Below, in pieces: positions 1 to 52,906 of a DNA stretch of 64,000 nt (positions within the stretch are counted from its first letter, which is position 1; every line of letters begins with the position of its first letter). This stretch comes from Heliocidaris tuberculata. Lineage: Eukaryota; Echinodermata; Echinoidea; Camarodonta; Echinometridae. The notes below the pieces were generated by a model. That model ran no database searches. It was given only the letters and a program-made list of their open reading frames with translations, and was not told the origin of the DNA. The position numbers and the translations under genes are program-made. The stretch lies in contig CM046833.1 of the NCBI GenBank assembly GCA_025618425.1, forward strand, positions 32,621,747-32,685,746, written 5' to 3'.

Positions 1-76
1 TCTGTGCACCTCTTACATTAGACATCCAGGTCTTATGTCCATATATGTAGAAGAATACTTTACCAGAGATACAAAT
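1..76 (-). CDS. Paralog 4 exon 4 (PR domain, second part, truncated by window)
   Basis: Acceptor GATTACAG|ATT at 77-78. Encodes ICISGKVFFYIYGHKTWM and NVRGAQ before the edge. By comparison with the paralogs about 165 nt of this exon lie beyond the window. Confidence 0.8.
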   Translation of the reverse strand, partial: MCISGKVFFYIYGHKTWMSNVRGAQ

Positions 77-2875
77 CTGTAATCAAACAGTTTCAGCATG
101 AGACAAGGCTAACATATTATAAGTACTATCATAAAATTATATTACTACCGCTTAAAGAAAACAAGTCCTTTCACACATGATGCATTTTTTGAGGGAATAT
201 TCATATCAACTTATCATGTATGAACAAGGATGCAGATTACCAAGGGGATTATATTATTACAGCTTAAAAGATTCTAAAAACATAGTCAAAAGCCTCGTTC
301 AAACATCTATACAAAATGTTTTTAAAAAACCACCTGGCAAAATAAGAACCAATTTACGTCTATATGAATAGTAAATGGGGTAAAAAATAAAATAAGCAAA
401 AGTACATGTAGCTACACACAGCACAACCCCTTAACCCTTACTATACAGCCCCCCCCCCCCCCCCCAGACAAATCTTGCCAACTTTCTGACTTTTTTCTTT
501 CAAGTCTTGCGCATCTTTTGACACCAAGTGGACAAAAATTGGTCATCCCATTACTGAGTCACATGAACTTTCATGACCCGTCAGCCCGAACACGGAGAAT
601 TTCTGACTTTTGTGTATGAAATGAATGGGAAACAGCCTTTCATCATGTTCCTCCTTTATTACTTATAATTTCTTCTTTAATCTGTAATTATCATTTATTC
701 TAACTGAATATTGGTTCATGTAACACTCTGCAATTGCAGACTTAAAAAACAATAAAAAAGTTAAAGTTGAGAAACAAAGAAATACATATGAAATTTGTAA
801 AACAATAGAATACACAAAATTGAAATCACTTTTAAAAAATGTTCTTATCTAATAATGATTTTAAGGTTTAGAGAGAACTTCTTGCATTAAGATTTTATCT
901 TCAAGGTCTATTTACTTGATTATCAATCAAAATGTATATGTACATGTATGCATATAATTTGCATAAATTATATTAAATGAAAAAATATATATACATTAAA
1001 AGAATAATGGAATTGTGTTTCATATGCGATTCTCGAGGTCCATGCAATATTTTGCACCGATCGGTCATGTCTCGGCCGAGAGCAGAGGAGAGGGCGGCCT
1101 CAGAGGCCCCCCCCCCCCCCCAACCCCCAGTCACAGAGGAGCTTGAAATAGCCCAGTACAGGAAGGATTAAACATATCAGGTATTCAGGTATCTTTGTGT
1201 TATAAGATATAGAAATATGAAACGTTTTACACTAATGTCACTTCATTTTGTTGCTGGAGCTTTTAGGGGGCAGCGTAAGACATCGAATTGGGAAATAGCT
1301 TTATTATTTATGGATCTGTAAAATGGATTGTATAGAAAATATCCAATTCTATCCAAAAAATTTTACAGAAAAATTACATTGTATTTCAAGTTCACATGCT
1401 AACAGAAATTGTCTTATCAAGTTTTGTACTGCCTACCTCCCAAGAAGTATCCTTAGACCAGCCCTGCTCCTCGTTCATCAATGTTCCTGTATAGGGTCCA
1501 AACTCCACCCCCTTCTCTATTGCTTCCTTGGCAACAACTCCCTCTACCTTGTCCAGTGAGACCACTCTTAAAGAGAGAGATGATGGAAGATCCCTAACAG
1601 AGCTGGTCTTTCTGAGATTGAGTGCTGCAAACAGCTGCGGCTCCTCAGCAGAGCTCCTTGGGGATGAAGGACTTGCAACAGGCTCATGTGACAAGGTTTG
1701 ACAATCCTCTCTTTGTTCTTCGGACTGTACTTGCTTTGAAGGAAATGATGCAGTATCTGGTTGAAGGTAATACAAACAAATTGAATAAAATCATGATGAC
1801 TATAGGAAACTGGAAACTAATTTGGTTATAAACTGGAAATATTCTTCTGAAGACAGACTTCTCAATATAACTCGAGAGAACACAATGTCATCAATTTACA
1901 GATTCCAATTCAAATTGATTACATGAGAATAAGCAAGTTTACTTGCTACATTTATAGGGTACCCATTTAATACACCTGGGTATGTACACATGGAATTGTA
2001 AATAAAACAACTTGTCTGAAGAAATCCAACCAGATTCAAATTCTGTCGCCGGAGCACGTGTCGCAGAACCGTACTACTGGCATCAACCAGTGTAATGAAT
2101 TCTCACCTGGTTGGGTTGATGTGTTGCCCTCTGTATGTGGTTTACGTGATGTCAAGAGCCGAATCTTGCTCTCTGTCACTGTTACATGACTCTTGACAGG
2201 CTGAATACTGTTCTCTGTAACTACTTCAGGAGTTGTCATGGGCACGATGTTGCTGTCTGTAACTGGTTCGCAAGGTGAGGTGGCTGGAATGTTGCTCTCC
2301 ACAGCTGATTCATGAGTTGTAGTGGCTTGAATGTTGCTCTCTACAGATGATTCATGAGTTGCAGTGGCTGGAATGTTGCTATCTACCACTGATTCACAAG
2401 TTGTGGGGGATGGAATGATGTCCTCTACGGATGATTTACAAGTTGTGGTAGGCAAGGTATTTCTTTCTATAACTGGCTCAGGAGTTGTAATGGGCAGGTT
2501 GTTTCTCTCTATGGCTGGTTCATGAGTTGTGATGGGCGGTGTATAGCTTGCAGATGGAGTTGCAAATTTGACCCCATGACCTCCGAAAGTGACAGGTCGC
2601 TGATGATGAGCAAGGTGCAAATGATTTGAAGTTGAATGCACAGGGCCAGGATCTTTTAGAAAAGAAATCAGAAATAAAATACAGATGACCTAAAACATGA
2701 CAACTTAAATGAAATATAAGGCCAAGTAAAATAACTTGAAGGTTGCTCTTCCATTGTGATACAGGCCATCTTTCTATTAATTGTTACTATGAGGAACCTT
2801 AAGTAAAGAGCACTATAATAACAAACTCTCGTTTGTTATAACAGTGTTCTGTGGAATCGGCTTTCTGACCAGCTT

Positions 2876-2949
<74 letters not shown>

Positions 2950-4497: not shown

Positions 4498-4529
<32 letters not shown>

Positions 4530-6404: not shown

Positions 6405-6405
<1 letters not shown>

Positions 6406-6452
<47 letters not shown>
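6406..6452. repeat. 47-bp poly-C tract
   Basis: Forty-seven consecutive C on the plus strand, preceded by a C-rich stretch from 6379. Confidence 0.95.
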
Positions 6453-10525: not shown

Positions 10526-11805
10526 TTAATGTTGAATGCTACTAGCATCTCCCTGTATCTTATGTTTGATCATGTGATGAGTGTAGTGATTGTTCAGTGA
10601 AAACTCTTTACCACAAATCTCACAAGAAAACGGTTTCTCTTTGGTATGCATAGTTTGCTTGTGAGTTGCTAGTGAAGTCCCTGCAGTGAAACCTTTGCCA
10701 CATTCCAAGCAAACATATTGCCTGATGCCCTTGTGCCGTCGTTCGTGTTTGGTCAGATTGCCCTTATCAGCAAAACCTTTATTGCACACGGAGCAGAAGA
10801 AACGCAAAGGGCGTTCCTGGTGCATGCGTCGCTTATGAGCATGGAAATGATTTTTCACCCTGAATCCTCGGCCGCATATTTCACACTTGAATGGTTTCAG
10901 TCCAGTATGTTCTCCTTGATGGTTGTTGAGGGCGCTCTCTGATCCAAAACTTCTTGGACACAGTGTGCAGCGATAGAATCCTTTTTGCTCATGGCTTATG
11001 AGGTGTTCTATAAGCCGCCGCTCACTTGTGAAAACCCTAGGACAATGAGTGCACTTGTAAGATCCCTCGTTGGTGTGAGCCTCTTTCTCATGGTCCCTGG
11101 CACTACAACGAGAAATATATCTCTTAGGACAAAAACGACACTTGTAGGGCCGCTTCTTAAGGTAGTAACTGGAGGTTTTACCTAGCATATCTTTAGTCTC
11201 ATCAGTTGCTGATTCAGATGCTTCGCTCTTCTCTGCAGATGTCTCCTTCGTAGCAGGCTGCGACAATTTGAAAGCTTGGTGTGTCTTCTCATGCTTCACA
11301 CATTCATTCTTCCTGGTGAATCGTTCCAAACAGAACTGGCACCGGTGTCCATGGGCTTCCCTCTCATGTTTATTGAGTGCGGCTTCTGATTTGCATTTTC
11401 GGTTGCATTTCATACACTTGTATAGTTTGGATTCATGAGTCGTCATGTGTTTTGCAAGGGTCTGTGCATTTGTCTGTCCTTTACCACATACAGGACAAGC
11501 ATGTTCCTGGTTGTACTCATGAAACAACTCATGGGCTTTCAGTCTGCCGCAGGAAGGGAAGACCTTATCACAAGTTCCACACTTGAAAACCAGCTCTTCC
11601 TGGTCATTCAATAATTTCTCTTTCTTTGGCTGCAGTTTAGAGCTGACCTCAGTTTCTGCTGGTTTCTTCCTTTTCTTCTTCCATGTTAGCACAGGGATCA
11701 TCTCATCAGGTTTACCAATGGTGTGTTCACATCTGATGTGTCTCAAGATTATTTTAGCTGACGGGAACAGACCCTCACACTGGCTACACTGGAACTTCTG
11801 TGCAT
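10526..11805 (-). CDS. Paralog 3 exon 5 (zinc-finger exon)
   Basis: Acceptor TTCCAG|ATG, phase 1; stop at 10526. Proximal finger starting DAQKFQCSQCEGLF, then four fingers, a linker with DMLGKTSSYYLKKRPY, and seven fingers ending KHKIQGDASSIQH. The third array finger has Cys in place of the usual Phe/Tyr core residue, which could weaken its fold. Confidence 0.93.
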
Positions 11806-14800
11806 CTGGAACATTAAAAGAAAATTAAACTGTATTTTAAAGGATTCCTTTCAAATCCTCATACAAGTGCATGTGGAGTACCTCAAGGCCAAGTTCTAGA
11901 TCCCCTTTTATTTCCTAACATATATGAATGATATATTTAACTGTACCAATATCTTCAACTTCATTCTCTTTTCAGAAGTGCAGATCAGGGGGTGTTTCAC
12001 AAATAACTGAAAAAATTAAACTGAGATACCAAAAGCCTAAAGCAAAAAAAAAGATAAACCCCACACTATTCATTACCGTAGTCAAAATTATTCCATAAAC
12101 ATTTTAGAAATGACATTCATTTAATTTACCCTGGTTAAATTCAAGATCGTTCAGTCTAGTCTGGATTCCAACACGTTTCCTGTATTCCTCACTGTAGAAT
12201 ACTTTTAGTTCATTTCCTGGTTCAATATCTTTTGTAGTTCGGAAGGAGATTTCACCATAGTACTGAAAGGCTTCTATATTCTGTTCCTCCTCACTCTGTG
12301 CACATTTAAGATGAGACATCCAGGTTTTACGTCCATCAATGTAGAAGTATACTCTGCCTGAAATACACACCTGAAATTATAGGAAGTGAACAGTTGTTTT
12401 CAGATTGGGACTCATTGCTAATGAGCAAGTCATCTCAGATATTTTGAAAACTGCGAGTGAAATAACCTTGGCAGTGAGTTGCTAGGAGTGAGAGTAATCT
12501 TATCATTGAAGGTGGATTAATCTAAATGACAAGTTATAGCAGTGGCGGATTTAGGGGGGGCACATCCAGCCCGTGCCCCCCCCCCCCCCCCCCCGAAAGA
12601 AAAGTATGCATTGTGGCCCCCTTTTAGAACCGAAACCTTTTTTTTTTCTTTTTTCTTTTTTTTGCTTGTCAGAGAATTATGGAGGGGAACTGGACCCCCA
12701 TAACCCCCCCCCCAACTGGGCGAATTATGGAGGTCTAGTGATTTTTGTTTTGTTTTGTTGACCCCCCCCCCCCCCCCCCCCCCCCCCCAACCCTCCGAGC
12801 AACTTTTCGAGAGCTGGCGAGAACAAAAAAATACGGGTCTCCCTTTTCCAAAAGTTGACAAACCTGCATTTGTGTTCCCCCTCTTATACAAAATCCTGGA
12901 TCCACCCCTGAATTATACTATAACTAGAAATTTAATTCGTCACTGAAGACGAATTAGGTGGTCTGTCCCAGAGGCAAATTGCTTTGTCAGATGTGATAAT
13001 ATTTCTGCATGATAATAATCATGATAATGTTGACGAAAATGATGATAAGATGGTCATATAAGTGATGACAATGACGATAATGATATATTGATAATGATGA
13101 TCATAATGATAACAATAATGAAAATCACCACGATAACCTAAGTGGCATAGCGCCCCTTCAAGTTCAATTTTATGGGCGATTTTTTAAAAAGTGCTTGAAA
13201 TGGCATAAAACATGTGCAAAATGAATTTAGGAGGATTTGGAGAATTTCTAAATTTTACGCGCACACGGACGCGTACGCGCGCGTTTAATGTAATGACCTT
13301 GACTGGAATGACAGTGACCTTAACCATGCCAAATATGAAAGAGAAATGACATTTGGTTATGAAGATATGACCATAAGTTGATTTTCACAAAATGGCGCCT
13401 GGATGACGTCACAATAACCTGATGACCTTGAAAAAGATGGGGGAACTTGACCTTATTAGGACTGATGACTGACGAAAATATGAAGAAAATTGACTGAGCC
13501 GATTTTGAGAAATCGGGATAACGAACTGGACGATTTGATATTGCAGGACATGTGGGAGATTATCCCCTTAGCTTTAATACACGACAGGGAATGAGATTGT
13601 ACACAAACTACTGCACACTACTTTCCAATAGACATAACATGCAAAATTAGGCAGTTTATTACATTGTTTGTGATGGTATATGTTATAATAGTCGAAGAAG
13701 ATGGTAAAATGAAAGGCAAAAAAAAAATTTTTTTAAATGGACCCACCGGGAATCGAACCGGGGTCGCCGGAATGGGAGGCAAGTGCTTTACCAATGGACC
13801 AAAATATTTCCAATAGAGATAACACGTAGACGAAAAACGGGATTCTCAAATGACATTTTGTAGTTAAAAAATGGGCATGATCCCGACATCTGATCAAAAA
13901 TTGGAGGGCACACTTGTGAAAGCTTATAGTCTCAGCTATAACATATTAAAATTTGGAAGAAAATCGAGCAGAAATTACAAAGATACTGCTCAAAGAAGAC
14001 GGGAATGTAGAATCAAGATTTGAGAAAAAGTCATGTCCCATAGAGAATACATGCAAAATGAGAAAAATTGACATGCCTCCTTTAATCGCAAAAATACGCC
14101 ATGATCCCTTTGTCAAAATGAAAAATCGTGGTAACTGATCTTGTAGAGAATTGTCTCAGCTACAACATATCAAAATTTGGAAGAAAATCGACAATCTATT
14201 ACTGAAATATTGTCAAATGAATACAAAAATTATGACGTCATTTTTTCAAAATCAAATTTTTGAGTTCATAGGCAAATATGATGACGTCACAAAATGCGAT
14301 CGGCCAAAATTTTACATGAATCCAAATCTACAATTCATAGGCTTTCAGAATATGTAATAAAATTTGGGGGTATCCAGGCATTCTGACGAGCTATGGCGGA
14401 TTCTAGATAGGCATGTTTTTAGCACTTTTTACATTATATTGCCCATTGACGCGCACACGAATTTGAAAGTTTGACGCGCGCGTGTGGCATTATGGAATGT
14501 CGAGAATGACTGTAAATAGTTGGAAATTGTCAAGAATTGTGTCAGGAATACAAACCATGCAAAAAAACGGCGTTTTTACGTTGTGTACGAGTTGTGCGCG
14601 CGCATAACGCACGCGCGGACGCGCACGCACGGACGGACTCTAATTTGATTAAAAAGTAATTTTGAGCATTTCTAAATTTTGACGCGCGCGTACGTGCGCG
14701 TCATGATGCGCGTGCGGATTTTGTTGACATTTTATCTTGACCCATGACCTGAAGTTAATGTGTGTCGAATATGGTTTATTTTTGATGACTCGTTATGAAG

Positions 14801-14989
14801 ATATGATCGATAATGTGATTTCACAAAATGGCGCCTGGATGACGTCACAATGATCTGATGACCTTGAAAAAGATAGGCGCACTCGACCTTGATAGGCCTG
14901 ATAACTGACGAAAATTTGAAGAAATTTGATCCAGTTGATTTTGAGAATTTACGGTCACAAGAAATGGGGAGAAAAATAAAAATAAAGAA

Positions 14990-15025
<36 letters not shown>

Positions 15026-18000
15026 AAAGGAAATTCGTACGAAATTATGAGGTGATCTGTCGATACCGACAGACCACCTAATTAAATTCTTCTTGGCCTT
15101 TGCATGGAATTACAATGATGTATTATGAAATGAGATTTTAAGACTTCATATATGCATGCCCCCTAAATTTTGTTGCTACTGATTCACGGTTGGGGAATTG
15201 ACACATCGCTGATCCATGATCATCTGGCTTTGTATGTAATTGTAATACATTGTTATTTGAAGCAGAAAATTGTGGGGTTACATCTGAAGGAACAAAAGTT
15301 TGTCAGTCAAATACCCTGTAGTACTTGCACCTACCTCCCATGTTGTAGCCTTGAACCACCCTAGATCCTCATCCAGCAATGTTCCTGTATAGGGTCCAAA
15401 CTCCACCCCTTTATCTATCTTTTCCTTGGCAACCACTCCCTCAATGCCATCCTGCGATGTCCTTTGAAACGAGAGACCCAGCGGAAGTTCTGGACTTGAA
15501 GATAGTGCCCTACTCTTTTTGAGATTAAGTGCTGCAAGAAGAGGAGGCTCAGACACAGAGGTACTTAGGGCTTGGGGACTGGCACTAAGTTGAGGTAAGG
15601 AGGTTGGACACTGGTCTCTCTGTTCTTCACACTGGATTTGCTCAGGAGGATCTGGTGCAATATCTGTTTTGCCTAACAATAAAAGATTTAAGTATCATCA
15701 TATGATCATTAGCATCTATGATGCTCACCTTAAATTCTAGATTGTTTTGCCTGAAAGAGGGTAAGCCAAGTTTTCAACATCACCAAAGAAAGGGTTTCTC
15801 ATACAAAATCTAATTGTTGAAATAAAATATTTCTTCAAAAAAGCAATCTCCTCAAGCCAAAAAGCAAAGATATAAAGAAAAAACAGCATGCATGTAGGCC
15901 TATGCCAGACATTACCTATTGATATGAATTTCCACAAGTTATTAACAGCTTTTCCCTGTTCCTGATACATGTATGTTGTTCCTTGTTCAACTGTGCATTC
16001 CCACGCTCTCCTTCTTTTCTCTACTGTGTTTCAAGTTTTATTATCATTTTTATGAAGTCAAAGTTATTTATGTATTTTGAATCCCACATGTTTTAGATAC
16101 TGAGACAACAAGACAGATTCTGCTCAGGACTGAGAAGCTCATTCCTATTCTTTACCTTGCACTTGTGCTGTGTTGCTACTTAAAACTTGTTCACGAGTTG
16201 TGATAGGCAGAATATTGCTTTCTACCACTGGTTCTGGAGTTGTGATGGGCGGGGCATAGTTTGCGGACAAGGTAGCAGATTTGACCCCATGACCCTCAAG
16301 AGTGAAGGGTACCTGCTGGCGAGCTTGATGAATGATACTTGAGCTTCCAAGCACAGGAGCAGAATCTTTAAATTACAAGAGAAATACATGAACTACTTTA
16401 ATATATAAAACTATAAAATACTACATTTCTATTAGCAATAGCAGGAAATCTGTGCACTTGTGTGGTAATACATGTATTTATCTTTTGAAAGCACATGTTA
16501 AAAACAATATTAGTCCAAAAGATTGAGGGAAGCAAAATTATATGAGAGGGGAAAATTATGATAATGGGGAATGGAAATTCCTTTGAAATTACTCCAATAA
16601 AGACAATGATACCAATGATATAAGAGTTATTCACAGTACATTACTAATACAAATCAAAATCACCATCCCTTTACTATACATGGACAATTGTGTAAATTTT
16701 TCTGGGATCCATTTTAGATAGAATTGATAGACAGGAAGGGATGATCCATTTCACAACATACATAATTGGAGGTGTTGTGGTCTAGTGGATGCGTCACCTG
16801 ACCGTGGATCACATGGTTCGCGGTTCGAGTCCCACCGCGGCACTGATGTCCTTTGGCAAAGCATTAATCTACATTTGCCACTCTCCACCCAGGTGTTAAA
16901 TGGGTACCCGGTAGGATGCGAATGTCATTGTGACTGGAATAGTACACTACCGCTTAAAGGTTTTGGCACATTGGTTCGGTAACGGTAATGTATGCAAAGT
17001 CCTCGGTGAAGCTTCCCGCGGTTCCTCCCCGAGGTTTTGCTGTTCGTCGAGAAACCGCGGGAAGCTATCGGTTCGCTATAGGTTCGCGAACGGTAAGGCA
17101 TCGGTAAGGCAACGGTTAGCAAGAGAGCGCACACGCACGAATTTCTTTCGGTGAACGGTGAACGGTTTGGCTAAGAGCGCGCACGCGATGAACGCTGTAT
17201 TGTGACGTAACAATGACTGACTTTGTAAAGCTGTAGCGCATGCAGGAACCACGTTTGCTCTTCCATGATTGCGTCGACGGAACAAATTATTCTGCATTCG
17301 AAACAAATCTGGTGATGGTGCCGATTGATTAAAATGATGATGGGATGGTGGTGTTTGTCATAATGATGGTGAAGAAAAATGACACTTGTGAACTTCATGG
17401 TGACAACTCTTTTTTTTTCTCTCGTCCAATTATAAATACGGATCATTCAAAGGCTTTATTCTTAACCCGCAAATGTATCGCATTTCTCGATTGGTTTAGA
17501 TTGTTGTAAACCTAAAATATATCAAGAAAATAAGAACATACCTTCATGTAAACTGTGTATTAATTTATTTTAAAGAAAATGTTCTTAAACCCCTTTGCCT
17601 GAATTGCGTTTGAAAATGTGTAGCGTACTAGCTTTTAGACAATAGTCGATATTAGAATGATATTTTTAAAATTCATCTTTCAATAACTATTAATGTATCA
17701 TGATGATATGAAAATGAACTATCATATCATCATCATCATCATATGATATCATCACATCATCATACCATATCATATCATATATCATCATATCGTCATTAAA
17801 CTCATAATCATTATATCAATTCATCATGATCATAATTATATTATCATCATCACATCATCATAGCACCATTATATAATCATGATCATCATGATCATCATCA
17901 TAATCATCATCATCATTATCTTGATAATCATATCTTCAAAACAATTATCATCTTCATCAAACGCATCATTAACAAAAAAAAAAATATATCAAGCCAACAT

Positions 18001-29221: not shown

Positions 29222-30498
29222 TCATTGTTGTGTGCTGCTTAAATCTCCTTGTTCTTTATGTTTGAACATGTGATAAGTGTAATTCTGATTCAGAGAAAAC
29301 GATTTACCACATAGCTCACAAGTAAATTGTTTCTCAGGAGTATGCATAGCTTTTATATGGGTTGTGAGGCAAGTCTTTGCTGTAAAGCCTTTGCCACATT
29401 CTAAGCAAACAAACGGCCTGATGCCCTTGTGACGTCGTTCATGTTTAATAAAATTTCCTTTATCATAAAATCCTTTATTGCAGACAGAGCAAAAGAAACG
29501 ATTTGGGCGTTTCTGGTGTATACGCCGCTTGTGTTCGTAGACAGCTTTTTTAACTCGGAATCCCTTGCCGCAGATATCACACTTGAATGGTTTCAGTCCG
29601 GTATGCTCTCCTTGATGGTTGCTGAGGGCGCTCTCTGATCCAAAGCTTCTTGGACAAAGGGTACAGCGATACATACGATTCTCCTCATGGCTTCTGAGGT
29701 GATCTATCAGACGACAATGACTAGCAAAAAACTTTGAACAATGAGTACACTTAAAAGCTGGATCTTCTGAATGCACTTCTCTTTCATGGGTCCTTGCACC
29801 GCTACGTAAGCTATATCTCTTTGGACAAAAGCGACACTTAAAGGGTCGTTGGTAGTAATTAAGAGTTTTACCAAGCATGTCCTTTGGCTCATTAGGTGCT
29901 GGTACAGCTACTGAAGTCTTTACTGCATTTGCATTAGTCTTTGCAGCAGAATGTGATGACATGAAAGCTTGGTGGGTCTGTTCATGTTTCTTGCAATCGC
30001 TCTTGTAAGGGAACCGTTCCAAACAGACTCGACAGTGATGACCATGGACTTCATTCATGTGCTTGCGGAACGTAGATTGTGATTTATAGATACGGTTGCA
30101 TTCGTTACACTTCAATTGTGCAGGGTCATGTGTCTTCACATGTTCTGCAAGGGTTCTGGCATTTTTTTGTTTCTTATCACATACAGGGCAGGTGAGATCC
30201 ACGCTGAAGTCATGGAACATCTCATGTTCCTTCAGTCTGCCACGGGAAGGGAAGACCTTCTCACAAGTTCCACACTTGAACACTGGCTCCTCCTTGTTGA
30301 TAGCTTTATTTTCCTTCATTACATCTTGTTGGGAGCTGATGTCAATATCTGTTTTCTTCTTCTTTCTCGTCTTCCATATCAGCACAGGATACCCTTCATT
30401 CTGTCTGTCCTGGGAGTGTTCACATCGCACGTGTCTCAGGGTCAGTTTAGCAGATGAGAACAGATCCTCGCACAGGCTACACTGGAACTTCTGCGCAT
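29222..30498 (-). CDS. Paralog 2 exon 5 (zinc-finger exon)
   Basis: Acceptor TTTCAG|ATG, phase 1; the stop is at 29222. Proximal finger starting DAQKFQCSLCEDLF, then four fingers, a linker with DMLGKTLNYYQRPF, and seven fingers ending FKHKEQGDLSSTQQ. All Cys and His zinc ligands of the 12 fingers are present. Confidence 0.93.
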
Positions 30499-33400: not shown

Positions 33401-36353
33401 TAGGTGGGGACTAAAGATGGAGTTGAGTGCTGGTCATACAATGACATTATAAAAGAAACTGTCTCAAAGCAATTGGGAAAGATTAACTATGTAGTACAGT
33501 GGAACCTCATAATAAAGAACACTTTTATAAAAAAAACTCTCATTACAACAAGGTAATTTTGTCAGTCCCACTTGTTTGTATGCTATTGTTTTTTAGCCCT
33601 GATATAACAAGGTTTCAAATTTAAAGAGGTAATTTCCATGATCCCACAGAGTTTGTTAGAATGAGGTTCCACTGTATTTAAAAATTGATGTATACTGTGA
33701 GGTTGTGGAATCATCAAAATGATTAGCAATTGACTCACTCTTTGCTGAATGCCACCTGCACTGCACATAGAAATGTGTATATGGGATCACACACACAACC
33801 ACGTGGCGTGAAAGTCTGACCAAACTTTTCAGCTATTTCTTTACTTATCTACTTTGAATATGAGGGCATTTAAAGAGCAATCTTTTTCAGGGGATATTTC
33901 TTCTATGATATTCTTCAGAACGGACTAAAAAGAATGAGAAAGCTCACAAAGTACTTTTCACCTTTACCAAAAATCTCATCATTACTATTTTATGTTGTTG
34001 TTTGTGATATATATCTTCTTAAAAGAAAATAAAGTCTACGTCCCGTATTCTCAAAAGTGGCCTAAGTTAAGCCTGGCTTAAGTTAGGCCACTGATTTATG
34101 GAAGGACATTTGTCAATCCCTAAGTCCTGTATAAATTACTATATTTACATTGTATGTAAAAAAATAAAGAAACAAAATTATTTTCTGGCATGAAATGGGC
34201 ATCAGAAACCTATAGTGAGTTTTTTGCATTTACATTTAGTTCAAGAACTAGAGGGAGTCTCACTATGGTGATTTTGAAGGATGAAAAGTGGGTGACATTT
34301 GGCTCTCCATAATTCAGTGGCCTAAATCTACACACTTAGGTGGGGGCTTAAAGTTAGGCACCTGTTGAGAATACAGGCCTTTGTCAATAATGTTAGGGTG
34401 TATTACTTACTTCCCATGTTTTATCCATAGAGAAACCCTCCTCCTCACTCAACAGATTTCCCGTATAGGGTCCAAATTCCACCCCCTTCTCTATCGTTTC
34501 CTTGGCAACGACTCCTTCAACCTTGTCCTGTGATGTCCGTTTAAAGGAGAGACCCAAAGGAAGGTCTGGACTTGACGATAACATCCGACTCTTTTTTAGA
34601 TTGAGTGCTGCAAGAAGGCCAGGCTCCTTGGCAGAGACGTTTGGGACCGGGGAATTTGCTCTAGGTTGATGTGATGAGGTTTGATGCCTTTCTCCCGGTC
34701 CTTTGTTCCGTATTTGTCTAGAAGGAGCTGGTTCGACACTTGTTTTCCCTGATAAAAAATAGCATGAAAATAACAACAACAAAATCATCACATATGGATG
34801 CTAGTAGAACTGGAGCTCTCTGAAGGATGTTTCCAATAAAAAAAGTAAGCAAGCATTGAAGACATTCAGCAATGTAACATAACCACAAGCATGTCATATT
34901 ATTGATTTACATTTCATTTCCTTCTAGGAAGATATATCACGATGTAACAGCTATGTGATATTACAGATATACATTTCATTTTCTTTTCAAAATCACGATG
35001 TAAAGACATGTGATATTATTGATTTACACTTCACTTTCTTTTAAGAAGATCTATAACTAAAAACAACTACACAACAACAAAATATGATAAGGGCCAAAAG
35101 CGAGCTGTGTATAGTTTCCCCAAAATTGTCACAAGTACTAGTTCGCTGACATACCATTGAAACGTATGTTAATCTTAATATGCACATCTCAAAGGGATGT
35201 TGGCGAACTTGTACTTTTGTCAGTTTTGTGAAACGCTGCCCTATTACAGTAATTTGACATGGTGAATAACATATAATGATGACTTAATTGCATAAAAGAA
35301 TTTACCTTGAGATGTGTTGCTCTCTACAAGTGGTTCATGAGTTGTGATGGGAGGGGCATAGTTTGCTGACAGAGTTGAGGATTTGACCCCATGACCTCTG
35401 ACATTGGCTGGAAGCTGCTGATGAGCTTGCTGCACAATGCTTGAGTTGGAAAGCACATGACTGGAATCTTTTATAAAGAAATTAAAGAAAAAGACTCTTC
35501 ATTGTCAAAACATGAAACTTATATAAAGGCTTGATAAATTAGCAGATAAATGGAGTGATATACATCAACTGATATTGCTTTTGTGTCATTGTTTTTTCCC
35601 CCCATGAACTTTGGTAGGCAATTGCTGGAAAAATAATGAATGACAAATTAATCATTACCAGTAACATTAAACAAGAACGTTAGCAATTAGCAAAGACCTT
35701 CAGTATGACAGTGTCAACTAAATTAACAGTTAATATATTTAGTAAATAGATTTACTAAGCTAAGAAAACAAAACTGAGGTACTGGTACTTGAATTGGAGT
35801 AACTAATTACCATCACTTATAGGTCCTTGCCTATGTGAGACTGTATCAAACATTCACTGTTGCAGTAGTCAAAAACAGACAACAAAACTGCTCTAAGCAA
35901 GATTTAATTTTCTTAAATTTGCTAGATTACCTGATTCAGGGACTCTTCAACTGTTACTATGCTACGAATTTGAGGTTTCAGAGTTGAAAGTGAAATTCAA
36001 ATAATTATTTTCCTCTCATGTATGAATAATCTAGAATGGATACACACAAAACCTATTAAAGCCTATTCACCCGGAAAAGCTATTGTGGAGTACAAGCTTA
36101 TCTTCAGATAAGCTTGTACATGTACAAGTGAATTACCATGATAAATTGAGCTCAATATGGATGGCCCAGGATGCGGTACAGAGAAAGCTCTGTGTGGCTG
36201 ATCTACTGCAAACTCAGACAGATGTTGAGTGGTTGTGTGGTATGGTAGGTCAATGGGAAAGGGTGCAACATGTTGCTGCTGTTGTGAAGGTTGTTGTCTT
36301 TCTTGTTGATCTCTATCAGTGCAGTAGAAACCAGGCGGGTAGTTACCTTCCAT
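29222..36353 (-). CDS. PRDM-family PR/SET zinc-finger gene, paralog 2 (complete, 5 coding exons, 744 aa)
   Basis: Join of 36137..36353, 35306..35467, 34411..34748, 30839..31079 and 29222..30498, all GT-AG with phases 1,1,0,1 and an uninterrupted frame. The protein has the PPGFYC start, a short Gln stretch, a single THEP-type repeat, the PR/SET domain across exons 3-4 (catalytic-equivalent Tyr at about 298), a proximal finger and 11 array fingers. The 557-bp intron 2 and 340-bp intron 4 are short; the 3.3-kb intron 3 carries nested MITEs, a SINE and a pogo-like MITE. Orientation and exon plan match paralogs 1, 3 and 4, indicating tandem duplication. The expected role is a sequence-specific nuclear regulator; targets cannot be read from the sequence. 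Confidence 0.85.
30839..31079 (-). CDS. Paralog 2 exon 4 (PR domain, second part)
   Basis: Acceptor TTTCAG|GTT and donor CATG|GTAAGT; 241 nt. Encodes VCISGRVFFYIDGRKTWM, QMRCAQSEEEQN and ELRVFYSEEYQ. The first codon is Val where paralogs 1 and 4 have Ile. Confidence 0.9.
31108..31303. mobile_element. pogo/Tigger-like MITE
   Basis: CTACAGTGGTAACTCTCTTT to AGTTTCTACTGTA with internal ACCTTGTTATATCAGGAATC; 30 bp upstream of paralog 2 exon 4. Confidence 0.7.
31536..32458. mobile_element. Foldback MITE, family 3, interrupted by a family 2 element
   Basis: Ends TTAAAGGAAAGTCCAACC and GGTGGACTTTCCCTTTAA are inverse, and the inner arms match too. The right arm is split by the element at 32039-32394. 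In intron 3 of paralog 2. Confidence 0.75.
32039..32394. mobile_element. Foldback MITE, family 2 (short), nested
   Basis: Ends TAAAGGAGAATGAAACCCTG and its inverse; interrupts the right arm of the family 3 element, whose CTGTTTCT...TTTTTCTGCTTC sequence resumes after it. Confidence 0.8.
32777..33284. mobile_element. MITE with GGGCCCGGTTTCATAAAACT ends, carrying the SINE insertion
   Basis: Left end GGGCCCGGTTTCATAAAACT and right end AAGTTTTATGAAACAGGGCC are inverted repeats of about 25 bp. The SINE at 32814-33172 fills most of the interior. Confidence 0.75.
32814..33172 (-). mobile_element. tRNA-derived SINE, full length
   Basis: Minus-strand copy, about 360 bp: tRNA-like head with TGTGGATCAGTGGATAAG and GGTTCAAATCCC boxes, body shared with the SINE split at 16768/23317, and an ATT-repeat tail. 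Flanked by a possible ACAATAAT target duplication. Inserted in the MITE at 32777-33284, inside intron 3 of paralog 2. Confidence 0.85.
33492..33677. mobile_element. pogo/Tigger-like MITE
   Basis: TACAGTGGAACCTCATAATA to GAGGTTCCACTGTA with the family interior (GGTAATTTTGTCAGTCCCAC). Confidence 0.7.
34036..34380. mobile_element. MITE in intron 3 of paralog 2
   Basis: Imperfect inverted ends built on GTATTCTCAAAAGTGGCCTA and GCACCTGTTGAGAATAC, with inner inverted GCCTAAGTTAAGC-type motifs. It ends 30 bp from exon 3. Confidence 0.55.
34411..34748 (-). CDS. Paralog 2 exon 3 (PR domain, first part)
   Basis: Acceptor TATCAG|GGA and donor GGGAA|GTAAGT; 338 nt. Encodes GKTSVEPAPS, then LPLGLSFKRTSQDKVEG and GVEFGPYTGNL, ending KTWE. 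Same length as the paralog 3 exon. Confidence 0.88.
35306..35467 (-). CDS. Paralog 2 exon 2 (linker with one 14-residue repeat)
   Basis: Acceptor AAAAG|ATT and donor CAAG|GTAAAT; 162 nt, phase 1 to phase 1. Encodes a Ser/Gln-rich segment with the RGHGVKSSTLSANYAPPIT motif and one THEPLVESN repeat, the fewest copies in the array. Confidence 0.82.
36137..36353 (-). CDS. Paralog 2 exon 1 (N-terminal, Gln-rich)
   Basis: ATG at 36353 in the context GAGCCATGGAAGG, which is conserved in three paralogs. A potential CATAG acceptor just upstream suggests a 5' UTR intron. Encodes MEGNYPPGFYCTDRDQQE, a short Gln run and the HVAPFPIDLPYHTT motif. Donor CATG|GTAATT, phase 1. Confidence 0.85.
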
Positions 36354-38732: not shown

Positions 38733-39430
38733 CAAGGATTGTAATTCCGAACAGATTGTATTACCGAACATGTACAGTTAAGCGCCTAAAATGGGTTTTC
38801 ATACGTGTGGGATTACGCGTATGAAAACCACACTATTGAAACAAAGGTTGTGTTTTTTTCCCATAGGTTTCACATGTTCGGAAATACAGTACAGTCAAGG
38901 ATTGTAATTCCGAACAGATTGTATTACTTAACGTGTACAGTTAAGCGCCTAAAAATATGGGTTTTCATACGCGTGGGATTACACGTATGAAAACCACACC
39001 ATTGAAACAAAGGTTGTGTCTTTTTCCCATAGGTTTCACACGTTCAGAAATACAGTACCTTTTTCAAGGGACCAAAAAGCCGCGTCGTTGGGAAGGGGTT
39101 CACTCGGAAGGGAATATCGTATTAAATCTACGTTGTCTTTTTAAAATTTCATCAACTTCTTTTTCTGTAGGACTTTTAGCATTCATTACCTAAGTTTGAC
39201 AGATATTCATTTGATATTTTATTTGCTATCGTTGATTTTCTGAAAAGTGTTCGAACACTGGATCAACCACCATAAATTTTTCAAGGGACCAAAAAGCCGC
39301 GTCGTTGGGAAGGGGTTCACTCGGAAGGGAATATTGTATTAAATCTATGTTGTCTTTTTAAAATTTCATCAACCTCTTTTTCTGTAGGACTTTTAGCATT
39401 CATTATCTAAGTTTGACAGATATTCGTTTA
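38733..39430. mobile_element. Copy of the 56037-56490 element with internal duplications
   Basis: Has the CAAGGATTGTAATTCCGAAC start twice, the CACGTATGAAAACCACACAT-type block twice, and the GGGACCAAAAAGCCGCGTCG block twice (39066 and 39283). The last copy breaks off at 39430 and its missing end resumes at about 42245. Confidence 0.65.
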
Positions 39431-39470
39431 AAGTAGATATTAAAAGCAAATCACAAATATGCTTAATAAT

Positions 39471-46134: not shown

Positions 46135-47510
46135 CTATTGCTGTATGCCATTACCAACATTTTCATCTCCCTGTAGCTTATGTTTGAACAGGTGAAAAGT
46201 ATAATGATCATTCAGGGAAAATGTTTTACCACAAATTTCACAAGAATAAGGTTTCTCTGCTGTATGAAGGCTTTGCATATGAGTTGTAAGTGAACTCTTT
46301 GCTGTGAATGCTTTTCCACATTCAGTGCAAACAAATGGCCTGAGGCCCTTGTGCCGCCGTTCATGTTTTATCAGATTTCCTTTATCAGCAAACCCTTTAT
46401 TACACACAGTGCAAAAGAAGCGCATAGGGCGTTCCCGGTGCACGTGTCGCTTGTGCTGACAGACTGCTTTTCTCACTCTAAACCCTCGACCACAAAGCTC
46501 ACATTTAAAGGGTTTCAGTCCATTATGTTCTCCTTGATGGTTGTTGAACGCACTCTCTGATCTGAAAGTTCTTGGACAGAGTGTGCAGTGATATGTACGG
46601 TTCTGCTCGTGGGTTTTGAGGTGTTTCAAAAAGACAGACTCTTTGCTAAAAGACTTTGAGCAATGACTACACGTGAAAGGTTTATATCCGAAATGCACAT
46701 CTTTCTCATGGTTACTGACAGTGTTACGGGTCAAATATGTTTTAGGGCAAAAGCGGCACTTGAAGGGGCGTTCCTTGAGGTAGTAAGTGGCAGTTTTTCC
46801 AAGCATATCCTGAGGCTCATCAGGTGCTGGTTCTGCTACAGGTGCTGGTGTTGCTGATGGAAGAGTCCTTTCATCAGAATGGGATGTTAAGTAAGATTGG
46901 TGTGTCAGCTCATGCTTCAGGCAATCTTTCTTTTTAGAGAACCGTTCTTTACAAAACCGGCATGGGTACCCATGGATATGATTTTCATGCTTCCGGAGTG
47001 CAACCTTTGATGTGTACCTTCCGTTGCATTCATTACACTTGTGTGGCCTGGGTTCATGTTCTGGTTTGTGCAGCATCATGTGTTTTGCCCACGTCTGGGC
47101 ATTCCTCTGTCTCTTACCACATACAGGACAAGTGTGATCCGGGCTGTACTCGTGGAACATCTCATGCGCCTTTAGTTTACCGTAAGAACTGAAGACCTTG
47201 TCACAGGTATCACACTTGAAAACAGAGTCTTTGAGGTTGCTTGCTCTTTTCCTTTTCTTGAGAGGCTGTTTTAAGCTGACTTCACTTCCTTTCTTGAGAG
47301 GCTGTTTTAAGCTGACTTCAATTCCTTTCTTGAGAGGCTGTTTAAAGCTGACCTCAATTCCAGCTGATTTTTTCTTTGGCTGTTTCATTGTCTGTACAGA
47401 GATCATCTCATCAGGTTGACCATTGGTGTGCTCATATCTGATGTGTCTCAGGATAAGTTTAGCTGATGTGAACAGACCCTCACACAGGCTACACTGGAAC
47501 TTTCGTGCAT
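46135..47510 (-). CDS. Paralog 1 exon 4 (zinc-finger exon)
   Basis: Acceptor TTTCAG|ATG, phase 1; the stop is at 46135. Begins DARKFQCSLC (proximal C2H2 finger with H-x4-H), followed by a Lys-rich linker with three near-identical 12-residue repeats (GIEVSLKQPLKK type), four fingers, an Ala/Pro linker with the DMLGKTATYYLKERPF motif, then seven fingers. A possible AATAAA signal lies at 46016-46021 (minus). Confidence 0.92.
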
Positions 47511-50500
47511 CTGAAACATCGAGAGAAAATTCATCCTTATTAAAATGCTATCCTACAGCTAACAAATACACATGGATTTCCTCATGGTTCAGTATTAAGT
47601 CCATGTTAATTTTCTTATGTGCAATGCCACAGGTTGGACATGGACCTTAAAATTTAAATTTGGTATTTCACTTAGCAACAAATGTATGAATCATTTTTTT
47701 TGGTGCTACATAATTGCAGAAACTTGTGCAAACATTAGTAAACCTATCATCAGTGGTTTACTTTAAGAAAACAATATTAAAATTTATAAAATTGTAAAAA
47801 TCATCTATTTTTACACTTTTTAGTGATGTTTTGCCTATAAATTGTGCATTTTTAAATTGCTTTTCTGGAAGTAAAATATCTAAAGTTTTCCAGGATTTAT
47901 ATGGAAATTAAATTGAAAAGGTCCACTGATTATTTTTCATTGAAAAAAAACCCCCAAAGAAGTATGCAAGTCCTGCAAGTTAGAATGAAACCAAAGCTGC
48001 AGCTATCTCATGGAAAAAATGTAACGTGAGTAACCATTATTCCTGTGAAATCTGCAAATATGATGGGTCCAGTAATTTTCAGTTGTCACCCAGGGGAGGT
48101 CTACCTAGCATGGTTCTTTGAAAAGGATAAAATAATTTTTCAAGAAAGCCTCATATTAGCACACTTTTCATTAAGTCCTCTTTGCAATTTATGCATGTCC
48201 AAAGTAATGTGAATAACCGACACATTAGTTGGGCTAGCAGTAACTACTGTTCTTCTTCTATTAGGTTTTGGTTATATATATAGGTACTCCAACATGTATG
48301 CATTGTGTCAACTAAAACTGATTTAGCTGATACCTGTAATAAGAGAATTCGAGCTGAAGATGTAACCCAATACATCTTCAACTGTAATGTGAGTAACTAT
48401 GAAATTGCCCTTATGTATTGAACATACCTGTATTACTGAAATACATATAGTCTGAGTGATTAACAAAATCACAAGAAATCCCATCTACTGTATAAGCTGT
48501 TTTTTTCGCGTACAGATATTTTCGCGATTTTGGACTAGGTAGGGAAATTCACGAGGGTTTAATTTCGCGATTTTTGTGATGTTTTTGTTACCTATAAACA
48601 GCCATATATTGAAGTGGAAATTTTCGCGAGGACCGACTCACGAAAATCGCGAAAATAAAACCACCGCGAAAATAACCACTTATACACTATCTTCAAAACT
48701 AATCTTAAATAGTCATCACTGTGACTGTCATTCTAGCAGCATGGCAGATGCCAGGTGGATGCAGATTGATTGTTTTGAATATGTTATGAATATGCAGATT
48801 TATTGTTTTGAATATGTTTTGAATATGCAGATTGATTGCTTTGAACATGTGATGAATATGCAGATTGATTGTTTTGAATATGTTATGAATATGTAGATTT
48901 ATTGTTTTGAATATGTTTTGAATATGCAGATTGATTGCTTTGAATATGTTATGAATATGCAGATTGATTGTTTTGAATATGTTATGAATATGCAGATTGA
49001 TTGCTTAGAATGTTATCAATATGCTGATTGATTGCTTTGAATATGTTATGAATATGCAGACTGATTGTTTTGAATATATGTTATTAATATGCAGATTGAT
49101 TGCTTTGAATATGTCTTGAATACTGATGTTTTGGTTGACGTCAGAGATCAGGATGTAGCAAATGAAGTGGAAGATCAGCAGCTATTTAAACGTCTGATTT
49201 TAATGTTTGTCATGAGTTATATTGTTGGATGGGGGAAATAATCAATTAAATGTCATTCCACAATCGCCTTAATCCCAAAAGTGGGGGCTTGTCCAGGATT
49301 CGAACCCGAGACCTAACCAGTCTAATTTGCAAACATACGCAACCCGACTGTGAACAATGGATAAGAGTATAATGTGTCAAAATGAAGCTACTTCCGTAAG
49401 AGCCAACTACAGATACACAAAAGCTTGGGTGTCAGAAATTTGGTCAGCATTGGTTTCCTGGCAAGTCTAGAATCCATAAAGACAAGCAGTGTTTTAGGTA
49501 CCTTGGAAGCTACAACATTACATGTAAATGTGTAAAACTTTTCTTCTACTAGTACGATATGGGTAGCCTAGCTGATCATTAAAGGCCATGTCCACACTAA
49601 TATCAAGTTGATTTGAATAAATAGAGTAAAATTAAACAAGCATAACAGTGAAAATTTCACTGAAATCGGATGTAAAATAAGGAAGTTACGGCATTTTGAA
49701 GTTTTGTATTATTTCATGAAACAGTGATATGCATAACATGGGCGGTATGCAAATGAGTGAACCTATGATGTCACACACTCACTTTTCCTTATGTATTTTA
49801 TTATATGAAATTTCAAATATTTCAATTTTTATGGATGTGATAAAGAATCTCTCCCTTGTATCAATATAAAGTTACAATAATGACGATTTTACATGTTCCA
49901 TAAGGAGTCAAACCATGTTTTACATTACTGAAGCAAAAAATTGAAATATATGATGTTTCATATGATAAAATACAAGGAAAAGTGAGTGTGTGACATCATC
50001 GTTTCACTCATTTGCATACCGCCCATGTTACGCATATCACTGTTTCAAGAAATAATGCAAAACTTGAAAATGCCGTAACTTTCTTATTTTACATCCGATT
50101 TCAATAAAATTTTCACTGTTATGCTTGTTTAATTTTACTCTATTTATTCAATTCAACATGTTATTAGTGTGGACTTGGCCTTTAACAATCGCATATACAT
50201 CCAACAATGGGGAGGCTCAAAAGTGGAAGTTTTCTTCATCTTCCACATACCCTGGTTGAACATGAGATCCTTCAATTGAGTCTGGATTCTAACATGCTCT
50301 CTGTATTCCTCACTGTAGAACACTCTCAGTTCACTTCCTGGTTCAATGACCTTTGTGGTTCTGAAGTAGATTTTACCGTAGTATTGGTACGCCTCAATAT
50401 TCTGTTCCTCCTCACTCTGTGCGCACCTTAAATGAGACATCCATGTCTTATGTCCATCAATATAGAAGTGCACTCTATCTGATATACAAATCTGTAATAG

Positions 50501-52799
50501 TAAATTGAAACATAAAAGAGAAAATATTTTCACATCAACATAATCACAGACAAAATTTGTAAGAAAATTCACCTTGGCTATTACCTCGATTCTTTACAAA
50601 GTTTTTGGTCCAACTGTGTATTCAGTTACTTATATATTGTGTTTCTTAAAGAGAAAGTTGACTTCAGGGAGAGGTGAAAAATAATTTGTAAGCTTTCTCA
50701 TTCTTTTTATGTCAGTTTGGAAGATTATCATTGTGGAAATGTCCCCTGAAAAGGAAAGCTCTTCAAATGCCTTCAAATTCGAAATATGACGAGAAAAAGC
50801 TGAAATGTTCAGGCCGAACATTCATGCCACTTGTGTGTGCAGTCCCATATACCCATTTCTTTATGCATTACATGTGCTTTTCAGTGAGATTGGGTCAATT
50901 TCTTATCATTTTGATGATTCCAAAACTCACATTATAAAACTGTTCTTATGTATACATGATCAACCTTTCCCCATTGCTTTGAGACAGTTTCTTTCACAAT
51001 GTAATTAGTGACCAAAAGTCTACTTTATCTTTAAAGAAGGAATCCCAATTTTTTACATAAATTTACTAGAAAAATCATTGTCCTGATTAATTTTTATTAT
51101 TCATGACAAAGTTTATTTCATCTTTCATGTGATACAAAATATGTTACGATATTGTCATGCATGAATGAATTTGAAAGGTTTTAAGTGAGTGATGTCAAAA
51201 GTAGTTTGCGCACTGAAGTAACACATTTCGTATTTCTGTTAAGTACAATGCAAAGAAACAAAACACATGATAAAGACACAAAGCAGAGATAAGTGATATT
51301 TTATGATGATCCTTGGTCATCTTTTAACATGCATGCAATACTGACTGAGATAGGAGTAAAAAAAGTAATAGCCCCAATATCCTTCTAGATGATTGCACTG
51401 TCTGTCCATAATATGTGCTTGAGTCAAGACAAAAAGGAAACGAATGCAGAGTGAGGTTCAATGAATGGCCATTCACTGTGTCGATGAATAGATCCTACTT
51501 TAGTTCAATCATTCCAGGCTCTATCATAAAAAATGTGGTATCATACATAAGGGGATAAAATTTCCTACTTTATGATGCACTACAATAAATCTAATTATGT
51601 ATATTTTATGAGATGTTGCTGGAGAAAGTTGGGTTTCCTTTTTTAAGAAACACACTCTACATCACACTGTGAAAGCTCTCTTTCATTGTGCGATCCAGAT
51701 AGCATTACATATGGAGAAATTCCAGTTTTGCTGGCCTGAAACTAAAAGAAAAGTAATTGTTTGAAGCCCCAAGCTTGTCAGCCCAGTAAAGTTACCTACC
51801 TCCCATGTTGTATCCTTAGACCATCCCTTCTCCTCATTCATCAGTGTTCCTGTATAGGGTCCAAACTCCACCCCCTTCTCGATTGTTTCCTTGGCAACAA
51901 CTCCCTCTACCTTGTCTTGCGATGCGCTTTTAAATGAGAGACTCTGCGGAAGTCCTCCACGGGGATACAAGACTGTACTATTCTTTTTGAGATTAGGAGC
52001 TCTAAAAAGTTGTGGCTCCTTTATAGTAGAGACTTCAGTATCTGTAGGATTTGTACTATTTTGATGTGATGAGTTTCGACACTTCTCTCTTTGTTCATCA
52101 TGTTGCACTTCTGCAGATGGAATTGGTGCAATAGCTGTCTGGCCTAATCATTAATAACAAAAAAAATTTAAAGTATGAGAGAGAACTTAGAAGTACAGAT
52201 AATGTCAGAGAGAGAGAGAGAGAATATACGGATAACAGCTTAATTTCACTGTAAAGTGACACTTTAACACAATCATTACTCTTATTATCATTATCATCAT
52301 TGTTATCATAATTACTTTTTACTACAATACTTCATGAGTTTCACTACTTTTATTACATGTATGTTATCAAATTTAGATGAAGAGTCGGTTATGAAGGGTG
52401 ACAGAACAGCATTCAGGGCAACACTAACCTTGCGACTGTGGTACATTGCCCTTTACAGTTACTTCACGGGTTGCAACAGGTACATGTAGGTTATTTCTCC
52501 TTACAATTGGTTCGCAATTTGTGGCAGATGGAATGCTGCTCTCTACAACTAGTTCGCAAGTTTCAACCACCAAGTGATTTCTCTCCGTGACCGGTTCATG
52601 CGTTGCGATGGGCGGAACATGGCTTGCTGATAGATTTAGTGATTGGTGGCCTCTGACAGTGACTGGTGACTGCTGAAACATTTGAGCTCCAGGGAATGGT
52701 GCAGTGAACATTCTCAGTGGTTGATCAACCCCAAACTCAGTCTGGTGTTGAGATGCTGTTTGGTATGGCAGGTCCATGGGATAGTGCGCAACATGTTGC

Positions 52800-52847
<48 letters not shown>

Positions 52848-52906
52848 CTGTGTTCTTGTTGAGCTCTTTCAGTGCAGTAGAAACCAGGCTGGTAATTACC
52901 TTCCAT
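46135..52906 (-). CDS. PRDM-family PR/SET zinc-finger gene, paralog 1 (complete, 4 coding exons, 812 aa)
   Basis: Join of 52429..52906, 51800..52143, 50251..50491 and 46135..47510. All junctions are GT-AG and the phases (1,0,1) keep one frame to a stop at 46135. Predicted protein: PPGFYC-like N-terminus (here QPGFYC), 17 glutamines at 21-37, about four Thr/Glu-rich 14-residue repeats, PR/SET domain at about 224-345 (FGPYTG motif; EEEQN; VFYSEEY, whose Tyr333 aligns with the catalytic Tyr of PRDM9), a proximal C2H2 finger at 359-382, a basic 12-residue triple repeat, then 11 C2H2 fingers from 452 to about 797. PRDM proteins are nuclear DNA-binding regulators, some of them histone methyltransferases; activity here is inferred only. 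Unlike paralogs 2-4, its first two segments form one exon. It lies 9.8 kb upstream of paralog 2 in the same orientation. The exact PRDM subfamily is not settled. Confidence 0.85.
47255..47362 (-). repeat. 36-bp in-frame tandem repeat inside paralog 1 zinc-finger exon
   Basis: Three copies of a 36-bp unit encode 12-residue GIEVSLKQPLKK-like repeats between the proximal finger and the main array. Paralogs 2 and 3 show one degenerate copy at this point (SSQQDVMK and VSSKLQPKKEK), so the expansion is specific to paralog 1. Confidence 0.85.
48766..49125. repeat. Minisatellite, about 34-36 bp unit, about 11 copies
   Basis: Unit approximates ATATGCAGATTGATTGTTTT then GAATATGTTATGA, repeated with small substitutions. 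In intron-free DNA it would read NMQIDCFEYVM, but it lies within intron 3 of paralog 1 and is not coding. Confidence 0.85.
49579..50184. mobile_element. Foldback MITE, family 1 (about 600 bp)
   Basis: Same ends and long inverted arms as 4984-5584; here inside intron 3 of paralog 1, close to exon 3. Confidence 0.85.
50251..50491 (-). CDS. Paralog 1 exon 3 (PR domain, second part)
   Basis: Acceptor TTACAG|ATT and donor CCAGG|GTATGT; 241 nt, the same length as in paralogs 2 and 3. Encodes ICISDRVHFYIDG, then HLRCAQSEEEQN and ELRVFYSEEY. The PRDM consensus Asn of the RYVN-type motif is Arg here (residue 296), while the Tyr of the VFY motif is kept. Confidence 0.9.
50640..51045. repeat. Dispersed repeat copy in intron 3 of paralog 1
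   Basis: Reverse-oriented copy of the 27903-28690 repeat: shares TTCTCATTCTTTTTATGTCA, CAATTTCTTATCATTTTGAT and CCATTGCTTTGAGACAGTTT. Confidence 0.7.
51800..52143 (-). CDS. Paralog 1 exon 2 (PR domain, first part)
   Basis: Acceptor ATTAG|GCC and donor GGGAG|GTAGGT; 344 nt, entering in phase 1 and leaving in phase 0. Encodes a variable Ser/Thr-rich lead, then the PR-domain start with VEGVVAKETIEKGVEFGPYT and the closing TTWE. The homologous segment is found in all four paralogs. Confidence 0.88.
52429..52906 (-). CDS. Paralog 1 exon 1 (fused A+B exon)
   Basis: The start ATG is at 52906, preceded by a potential acceptor ending CAG at 52917-52919 that suggests an upstream 5' UTR exon. Encodes the start MEGNYQPGFYC, a run of 17 Gln coded mainly by CAA, a HVAHYPMDLPY motif shared with the paralogs, and about four degenerate THEPxxERN-type repeats. 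The donor is CAAG|GTTAGT, phase 1. Elsewhere in the array the Gln-rich and repeat-rich parts are separate exons; here they are continuous. Confidence 0.85.

Follow-up and report, generated by a model that had tools for sequence, protein, structure and literature searches.

Whether a row of zinc-finger genes in a sea urchin represents fast-evolving genes of the PRDM9 type or an old and stable set of regulators is the question raised by a 64,000-nucleotide stretch of the Heliocidaris tuberculata genome (contig CM046833.1 of assembly GCA_025618425.1, positions 32,621,747 to 32,685,746), which is referred to here as the window. The minus strand of the window contains four related genes with a PR/SET domain, arranged head to tail and transcribed in the order D, C, B, A. 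In the best reading, judged from their sequences, the four copies are old, intact duplicates and not PRDM9-type recombination-hotspot genes. They are probably tandem PR-domain poly-zinc-finger regulators, found so far in sea urchins only, in which the PR domain would serve mainly as an interaction module.

The gene models were rebuilt from splice signals (Table 1). The rebuild bears out the original prediction of a four-copy head-to-tail array in a single orientation, and yields identical protein lengths of 812, 744 and 765 residues for D, C and B, which are complete genes, each encoding a PR/SET domain and 12 C2H2 fingers. The fourth copy, A, is represented by its 5′ part only: 400 amino acids can be read without a stop codon, until the gene is truncated at base 1 of the window, after 76 nt of its exon 4. 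The array thus runs off the left edge, as predicted, and the zinc-finger exon of A falls outside the window. All introns of A–D are of the GT-AG type. A common exon order and common phases, claimed for all copies, hold for C and B, with five coding exons each and intron phases 1,1,0,1, but not for D, which has four coding exons and phases 1,0,1. Intron 1 is absent in D: its first exon (52429-52906) runs without a break of frame from the exon 1 part into a shortened form of exon 2; a genomic deletion would be consistent with this arrangement. The coding parts are spaced by approximately 9.8, 5.6 and 5.9 kb, as calculated from the model coordinates. The longest stop-to-stop frame in the window comprises 470 amino acids, compared to a maximum of 200 in 30 simulated first-order Markov windows, and the gene array is therefore more than a product of chance. 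Every ATG is preceded by an acceptor-like CAG or TAG at a distance of 8–11 nt and by an in-frame TGA two codons upstream, suggesting a separate 5′ untranslated exon. Such an exon is likely to be present in front of each ATG exon, while further N-terminal coding exons, or a hidden N-terminal domain in the ATG frame, are unlikely.

Table 1. Genes of the array and their parts, in positions of the window (1 is its first base).
Feature	Positions	Strand	Basis and relatives
Gene D, complete, 812 aa	46135..52906	-	Splice-signal model; orthologue P0007 (S. purpuratus), 100/100
Gene D, coding exons	52906-52429, 52143-51800, 50491-50251, 47510-46135	-	Splice signals
Gene C, complete, 744 aa	29222..36353	-	Splice-signal model; orthologues P0003 (S. 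purpuratus), P0004 (L. variegatus)
Gene C, coding exons	36353-36137, 35467-35306, 34748-34411, 31079-30839, 30498-29222	-	Splice signals
Gene B, complete, 765 aa	10526..23600	-	Splice-signal model; orthologues P0001 (S. purpuratus), P0005 (L. variegatus)
Gene B, coding exons	23600-23372, 16365-16156, 15672-15335, 12370-12130, 11805-10526	-	Splice signals
Gene A, 5′ part, 400 aa	1..4610	-	Splice-signal model; groups with P0012/P0022 (L. pictus), 97/95
Gene A, coding exons (three, and 76 nt of exon 4)	4610-4352, 2652-2107, 1756-1437, 76-1 (window edge)	-	Splice signals
PR/SET-like domain of D, exons 2 and 3	50251..51960 (approximate outer limits)	-	Alignment
PR/SET-like domain of C, exons 3 and 4	30839..34570 (approximate outer limits)	-	Alignment
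PR/SET-like domain of B, exons 3 and 4	12130..15495 (approximate outer limits)	-	Pfam PF21549; PDB PRDM9
Zinc-finger exon of D, 12 C2H2, DMLG between fingers 5 and 6	46135..47510	-	Pattern
Zinc-finger exon of C, 12 C2H2	29222..30498	-	Pattern
Zinc-finger exon of B, 12 C2H2	10526..11805	-	Pattern and Pfam

Both features of the PRDM superfamily are present, the C2H2 fingers in B, C and D and the PR domain in all four copies. Pfam scans covered B at an E-value limit of 0.001 and A at a limit of 1, with the PR domains of C and D assigned by alignment with B. The PR domain PF21549 is matched with 99.2 bits in B (cut-off 27), together with many C2H2 fingers, and with 36.1 bits in the incomplete copy A; Pfam by itself does not separate the PRDM subfamilies. 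No KRAB or SSXRD domain was found in the scans of B and A, with which C and D align over the N-terminus. A pattern search identifies 12 fingers in B, C and D and in their Strongylocentrotus purpuratus orthologues, and 9 or 11 in some other relatives. The fingers of B, C and D follow a 1+4+7 layout, and the final group of seven is preceded by a linker that carries a DMLG motif; of the four motif residues, D, L and G are invariant in all 21 relatives compared (P0001-P0021). The N-terminus of B, C and D is Q-rich. An AlphaFold2 model of P0001, built from 21 rows, shows a patchy PR part and an N-terminus without confident structure, and was judged too weak for a fold search (mean predicted local distance difference test score 54.9, predicted template-modelling score 0.27). 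Two coding repeats were observed: a 42-bp (14-residue) repeat of about six units in exon 2 of A (2280-2530), which on visual inspection has fewer units in the other three copies, and a 36-bp repeat of three units in the finger exon of D (47249-47361), whose product is a lysine-rich stretch of KQPLKKG-EVS units lying between the first two fingers.

An assembly artefact, or a set of decaying copies, is an extremely improbable source of the array. The window does contain long homopolymer runs without interruption, a possible mark of assembly trouble (71 G at 2877-2947, 47 C at 6406-6452 and 27 C at 12762-12788), and two residues in the PR domain of copy A are unusual. However, the synonymous divergence (dS) between the paralogues is 0.56–1.05, so that the copies are not haplotypes; the frames are intact, and every copy joins its own orthologue in a whole-protein tree. 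The three complete copies in themselves count against artefact or decay.

Three protein searches yielded 24 sea-urchin clusters, P0001-P0024, from S. purpuratus (8), Lytechinus variegatus (5), Lytechinus pictus (10) and Diadema setosum (1). Two of these returned 14 and 10 proteins, from sea urchins only. The third was a profile search, in which only the 7985 candidates sharing most exact words were scored; it gave 42 proteins, of which the 15 from sea urchins scored at least 770 bits and the 27 others no more than 239. The latter are mostly general zinc-finger proteins, P0026 and P0034 having PR domains by listed Pfam matches. The best protein match of B is P0001 from S. purpuratus, with 79% over the whole protein. 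In the whole-protein tree of 28 rows, the array clade of 18 rows is supported by 100/100. B groups with P0001, P0005 and P0024, C with P0003, P0004, P0006 and P0011 (both 100/100), and D and A with the relatives listed in Table 1, the row of A being filled to 37% only and marked as unusual in composition. The pair P0008/P0010 stands beside A without a member in the window, and in groups B and C the Heliocidaris copy branches outside the Strongylocentrotus and Lytechinus copies. A finger-only tree of 16 rows recovers the C group with 100/100 and the D group with 99/97. Since the copies join their own orthologues in the whole-protein tree, the duplications predate these species splits: we read B, C and D as older than the split from Strongylocentrotus, and A, B and C as older than the split from Lytechinus. 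The divergence of Strongylocentrotus and Lytechinus is put at ∼50 million years in PMC10273620. The expansion had been proposed to be lineage-specific, which so far fits echinoids as a group rather than this single genome, given that all four copies have orthologues in Strongylocentrotus and/or Lytechinus.

The proteins P0001-P0012, from other species, belong to the same family and array clade, are similar over most of their length and include the orthologues of A–D. Their database names are diverse (PRDM9(-like), MECOM-like, and zinc finger protein names such as ZNF 676, 665, 345, 624-like, 431-like and 658B-like, among others) and presumably represent automatic best-hit names. Where contigs are listed, the relatives within a species lie on contigs of one same chromosome-like size (5/5 in L. 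variegatus, 3/4 in S. purpuratus, with P0018 as the exception, and 5/5 in L. pictus). The L. pictus database model P0024 combines an A-type N-terminus with a finger exon of the B type that matches P0005 at 94%, and has no PR domain listed, which would be expected if neighbouring genes had been joined into one model. An echinoid basal group, P0013-P0017 (S. purpuratus, L. pictus and Diadema), likewise has a PR domain and fingers in an alignable layout, and P0013, P0014 and P0017 have in common the finger 10 contact residues DGNK. The proteins of this group differ from the array genes in their length of 898–924 amino acids, in retaining a four-residue loop in the PR domain, and in falling outside the array clade.

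A ranking of PDB entries by sequence match places PRDM9 first, both with a single sequence (73.8 bits, followed by PRDM14 with 67.4 and PRDM11 with 59.3) and with a profile (109.4 bits, PRDM1 97.3), the first 15 of the 28 profile rows being PRDM chains. In a PR-domain tree the 25 echinoid rows, including A–D, form one clade against five PDB rows with support of 100/99; these rows represent PRDM1, 9, 11 and 14 only, on long and flagged branches, and the profile search of the PDB gives lower ranks to the PRDM families outside the tree. A tree in which the echinoid rows are constrained to group with PRDM9 is not the best tree, nor is it rejected (p = 0.131 in the approximately unbiased test, with these four families and their long branches). 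The single echinoid clade argues for one echinoid expansion rather than a set of old separate families, and this is the best reading of A–D. The prediction that a single PRDM-type family has expanded locally, with its reading frames intact, is thus upheld, and the tree, which covers four families, does not place the copies as old orthologues belonging to separate ones.

The first rank of PRDM9 in the PDB, the PRDM9 names of several database entries and the common order of a PR/SET domain followed by C2H2 fingers might suggest genes of the vertebrate PRDM9/PRDM7 type, which set meiotic hotspots with fast-changing fingers and write H3K4me3 and H3K36me3. In the same direction, the residues aligned with PRDM9 Tyr276 and Tyr357 are retained in B–D, and expression of a gene called Prdm9, which need not belong to the array, is described for sea-urchin germ-line tissue in PMC2779102. 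However, the Pfam scans of A and B show no KRAB or SSXRD domain, an in-frame stop lies just upstream of the ATGs, the residue at position 341 is Phe in B, C and D, and the echinoid rows form their own clade. The fingers within one protein are on average only 17–18% alike, therefore they do not form a homogenised array, and their contact residues do not evolve significantly faster than the remainder. A swordtail PRDM9beta with similar losses (no KRAB or SSXRD, slow fingers, Y341F and also Y357P) is predicted in PMC5519329 to resemble a PRDM9 knockout. A hotspot role of the array genes thus seems very improbable.

The PR domains may alternatively be active histone methyltransferases, with each copy marking different loci. 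The SET-like PR domain is strongly constrained, and the residue aligned with the catalytic Tyr357, the loss of which strongly lowers activity according to PMC4919437, is invariant in 21/21 relatives. Here the numbering follows PRDM9, counted from Tyr357, the key tyrosines being those named in PMC5519329. The PRDM9 trio is not fully kept: the residues aligned with Tyr276, Tyr341 and Tyr357 are Y, F and Y in B–D, and position 341 is Phe in 17 of the 21 relatives and Tyr in four. In A only the position of Tyr276 lies inside the window and is Y. The Asn preceding PRDM9 Cys321 is replaced by Lys or Arg in A–D. In copy A (1-76) Cys321 itself is replaced by Gly, and Tyr replaces an Asp that is invariant in the 21 relatives, so the PR function of A may be in the process of being lost. 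In addition, four residues between DG and W of the PR domain, present in PRDM9 and in nine other rows of the alignment, are absent in all 16 of its array-clade rows. Active methyltransferases are thus unlikely, and PR activity would be weak or absent. Of the two roles originally suggested, that of DNA-binding regulators fits the 12 fingers, while changes in part of the PRDM9 active site cast doubt on that of chromatin modifiers.

Selection on the copies was analysed by pairwise Nei-Gojobori estimates of the ratio of non-synonymous to synonymous substitution rates (dN/dS), rather than by codeml, in overlapping segments of six pairs, with A included for its visible part only. All 24 segment-by-pair estimates lie between 0.10 and 0.50, indicating purifying selection. 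In the three full pairs the PR domain is more constrained than the finger exon (dN/dS of 0.14–0.18 versus 0.26–0.34). Finger positions -1, 2, 3 and 6 were assumed to make the DNA contacts. Contact positions -1, 3 and 6 are given in PMC2604467. Contact and other finger positions do not differ significantly in 15 of the 16 scored pairs, contact changes are fewer in the remaining one, and one further pair could not be scored. By permutation, the total number of contact changes is as expected in four sets (p 0.22–0.93), including the window paralogues, with 64 changes at 144 sites and 60.3 expected (p = 0.31). Heterogeneity among fingers, from the four sets and two statistics, gives p 0.25 for the window paralogues and p 0.03 for the S. 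purpuratus paralogues. Fingers 8 and 10, which were picked after the counts were known, have 0/24 contact changes both among the window paralogues and between window and S. purpuratus orthologues. A divergence of specificity in fingers 5, 6, 7, 9 and 12 (contact 75% versus other 43%, Fisher p 0.0002) is not claimed, because these fingers were chosen post hoc and the permutation p for the window paralogues is 0.25. Likewise, A and D agree at 92% over the final 117 nt of exon 3, as against 61% over its 5′ part, but gene conversion is not claimed since constraint suffices: four-fold sites differ at 2/14 in this pair and at 2/14 to 5/14 in the five others.

These results bear on a further alternative, in which the array is an arms-race family that silences transposons and gains copies with new elements, in the manner of KRAB-ZNF genes. 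Vertebrate KRAB-ZNF genes, too, lie in tandem clusters and encode poly-finger regulators that carry an effector domain at the N-terminus (PMC2604467). The tandem arrangement, the repeat-rich surroundings, the extra Lytechinus pair P0006/P0011 in the C group and the contact differences among the paralogues would fit such a family. On the other hand, the orthologue groups are stable, the 12-finger layout is common to B, C, D and their S. purpuratus orthologues, dN/dS is below 1 throughout, and the contact differences are without significant excess. The array genes have a PR domain in place of KRAB, no TGEKP linkers in B–D, and no positive selection at contact residues detectable by pairwise dN/dS and permutation, in contrast to the vertebrate expansions, which are positively selected at these residues according to PMC2604467. 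An arms-race family is therefore quite unlikely.

Several observations weigh against the preferred reading of old, sea-urchin regulators with a mainly interacting PR domain. The profile search missed nine of its own 21 rows (P0013-P0021), and because it requires shared words as well, the lack of other echinoderms and hemichordates is no proof of their absence; the family may extend beyond echinoids. The placement of copy A is based on a sparsely filled row, the B group reaches only 81/99 in the finger-only tree, and in the PR-only tree the orthologue pairs of A, B and C are not recovered, with the PR domain of C closest to P0001 (78%) instead of its orthologue P0003. A shared contig in other species is weaker evidence than a gene cluster. 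Finger 8 has one contact change in P0005 of L. variegatus, and the catalytic evidence is mixed, with the residues at PRDM9 Tyr276 (A–D) and Tyr357 (B–D) retained.

In the preferred reading, the fingers would bind DNA sequence-specifically. As the contact residues of fingers 8 and 10 are identical in the three full copies and their S. purpuratus orthologues, these two fingers could give all copies a common core site, and since the other fingers differ between the copies, they could direct each copy to its own targets. The PR domain would probably serve chiefly to bind other proteins or recruit cofactors, its methyltransferase activity being weak or absent, and the N-terminus may be a flexible effector region. 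Having arisen before the split from Strongylocentrotus in the case of B, C and D, and before that from Lytechinus in the case of A, B and C, the copies would have been retained by purifying selection as separate regulators.

A tblastn search with 18 family proteins (P0001-P0014 and A–D, E up to 1e-3) gave no match on the plus strand or to the right of 53 kb, and none in the intergenic ranges filtered for (4.7–10.3, 24–29 and 37–45 kb). Seven other long open frames in the window have no Pfam match, and Rfam and tRNA searches were empty. A 33-bp tandem repeat of 11 copies is present in an intron of D (48759-49122). Dispersed repeat elements at 38725-39429, 56040-56418 and 24503-25115, ∼83–97% alike and partly in opposite orientation, sit between the genes and in the upstream flank of D.

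Among the matches listed in the open-licence literature, no paper on an echinoid PRDM array was found. A prior description may exist in the study of PRDM evolution by Vervoort et al. 2016. For an early S. purpuratus assembly seven putative PRDM orthologues are described, with no array named in the accessible text (PMC2082429). Two candidates for known relatives were rejected: the Paracentrotus Compass-like protein is a homeodomain protein, and the accessible literature on MBF1 mentions no PR domain.

More speculatively, echinoids might have built a regulatory cluster like those of the KRAB-ZNF genes independently, from a PR-domain founder, which is possible but doubtful. The PR domain would then have become a recruiting domain after losing the four-residue loop and some catalytic residues, and a two-finger core combined with copy-specific fingers would provide a combinatorial set of related sites that has persisted over tens of millions of years. 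Sea urchins serve as model animals in the study of gene regulatory networks, and yet the regulators of this family bear misleading names, such as PRDM9 or ZNF 624-like. If the array genes are a separate PR-domain zinc-finger lineage, the PRDM9 label would wrongly imply PRDM9-directed recombination in echinoderms, and the family would provide a contrast case in which tandem zinc-finger genes stay stable rather than racing.

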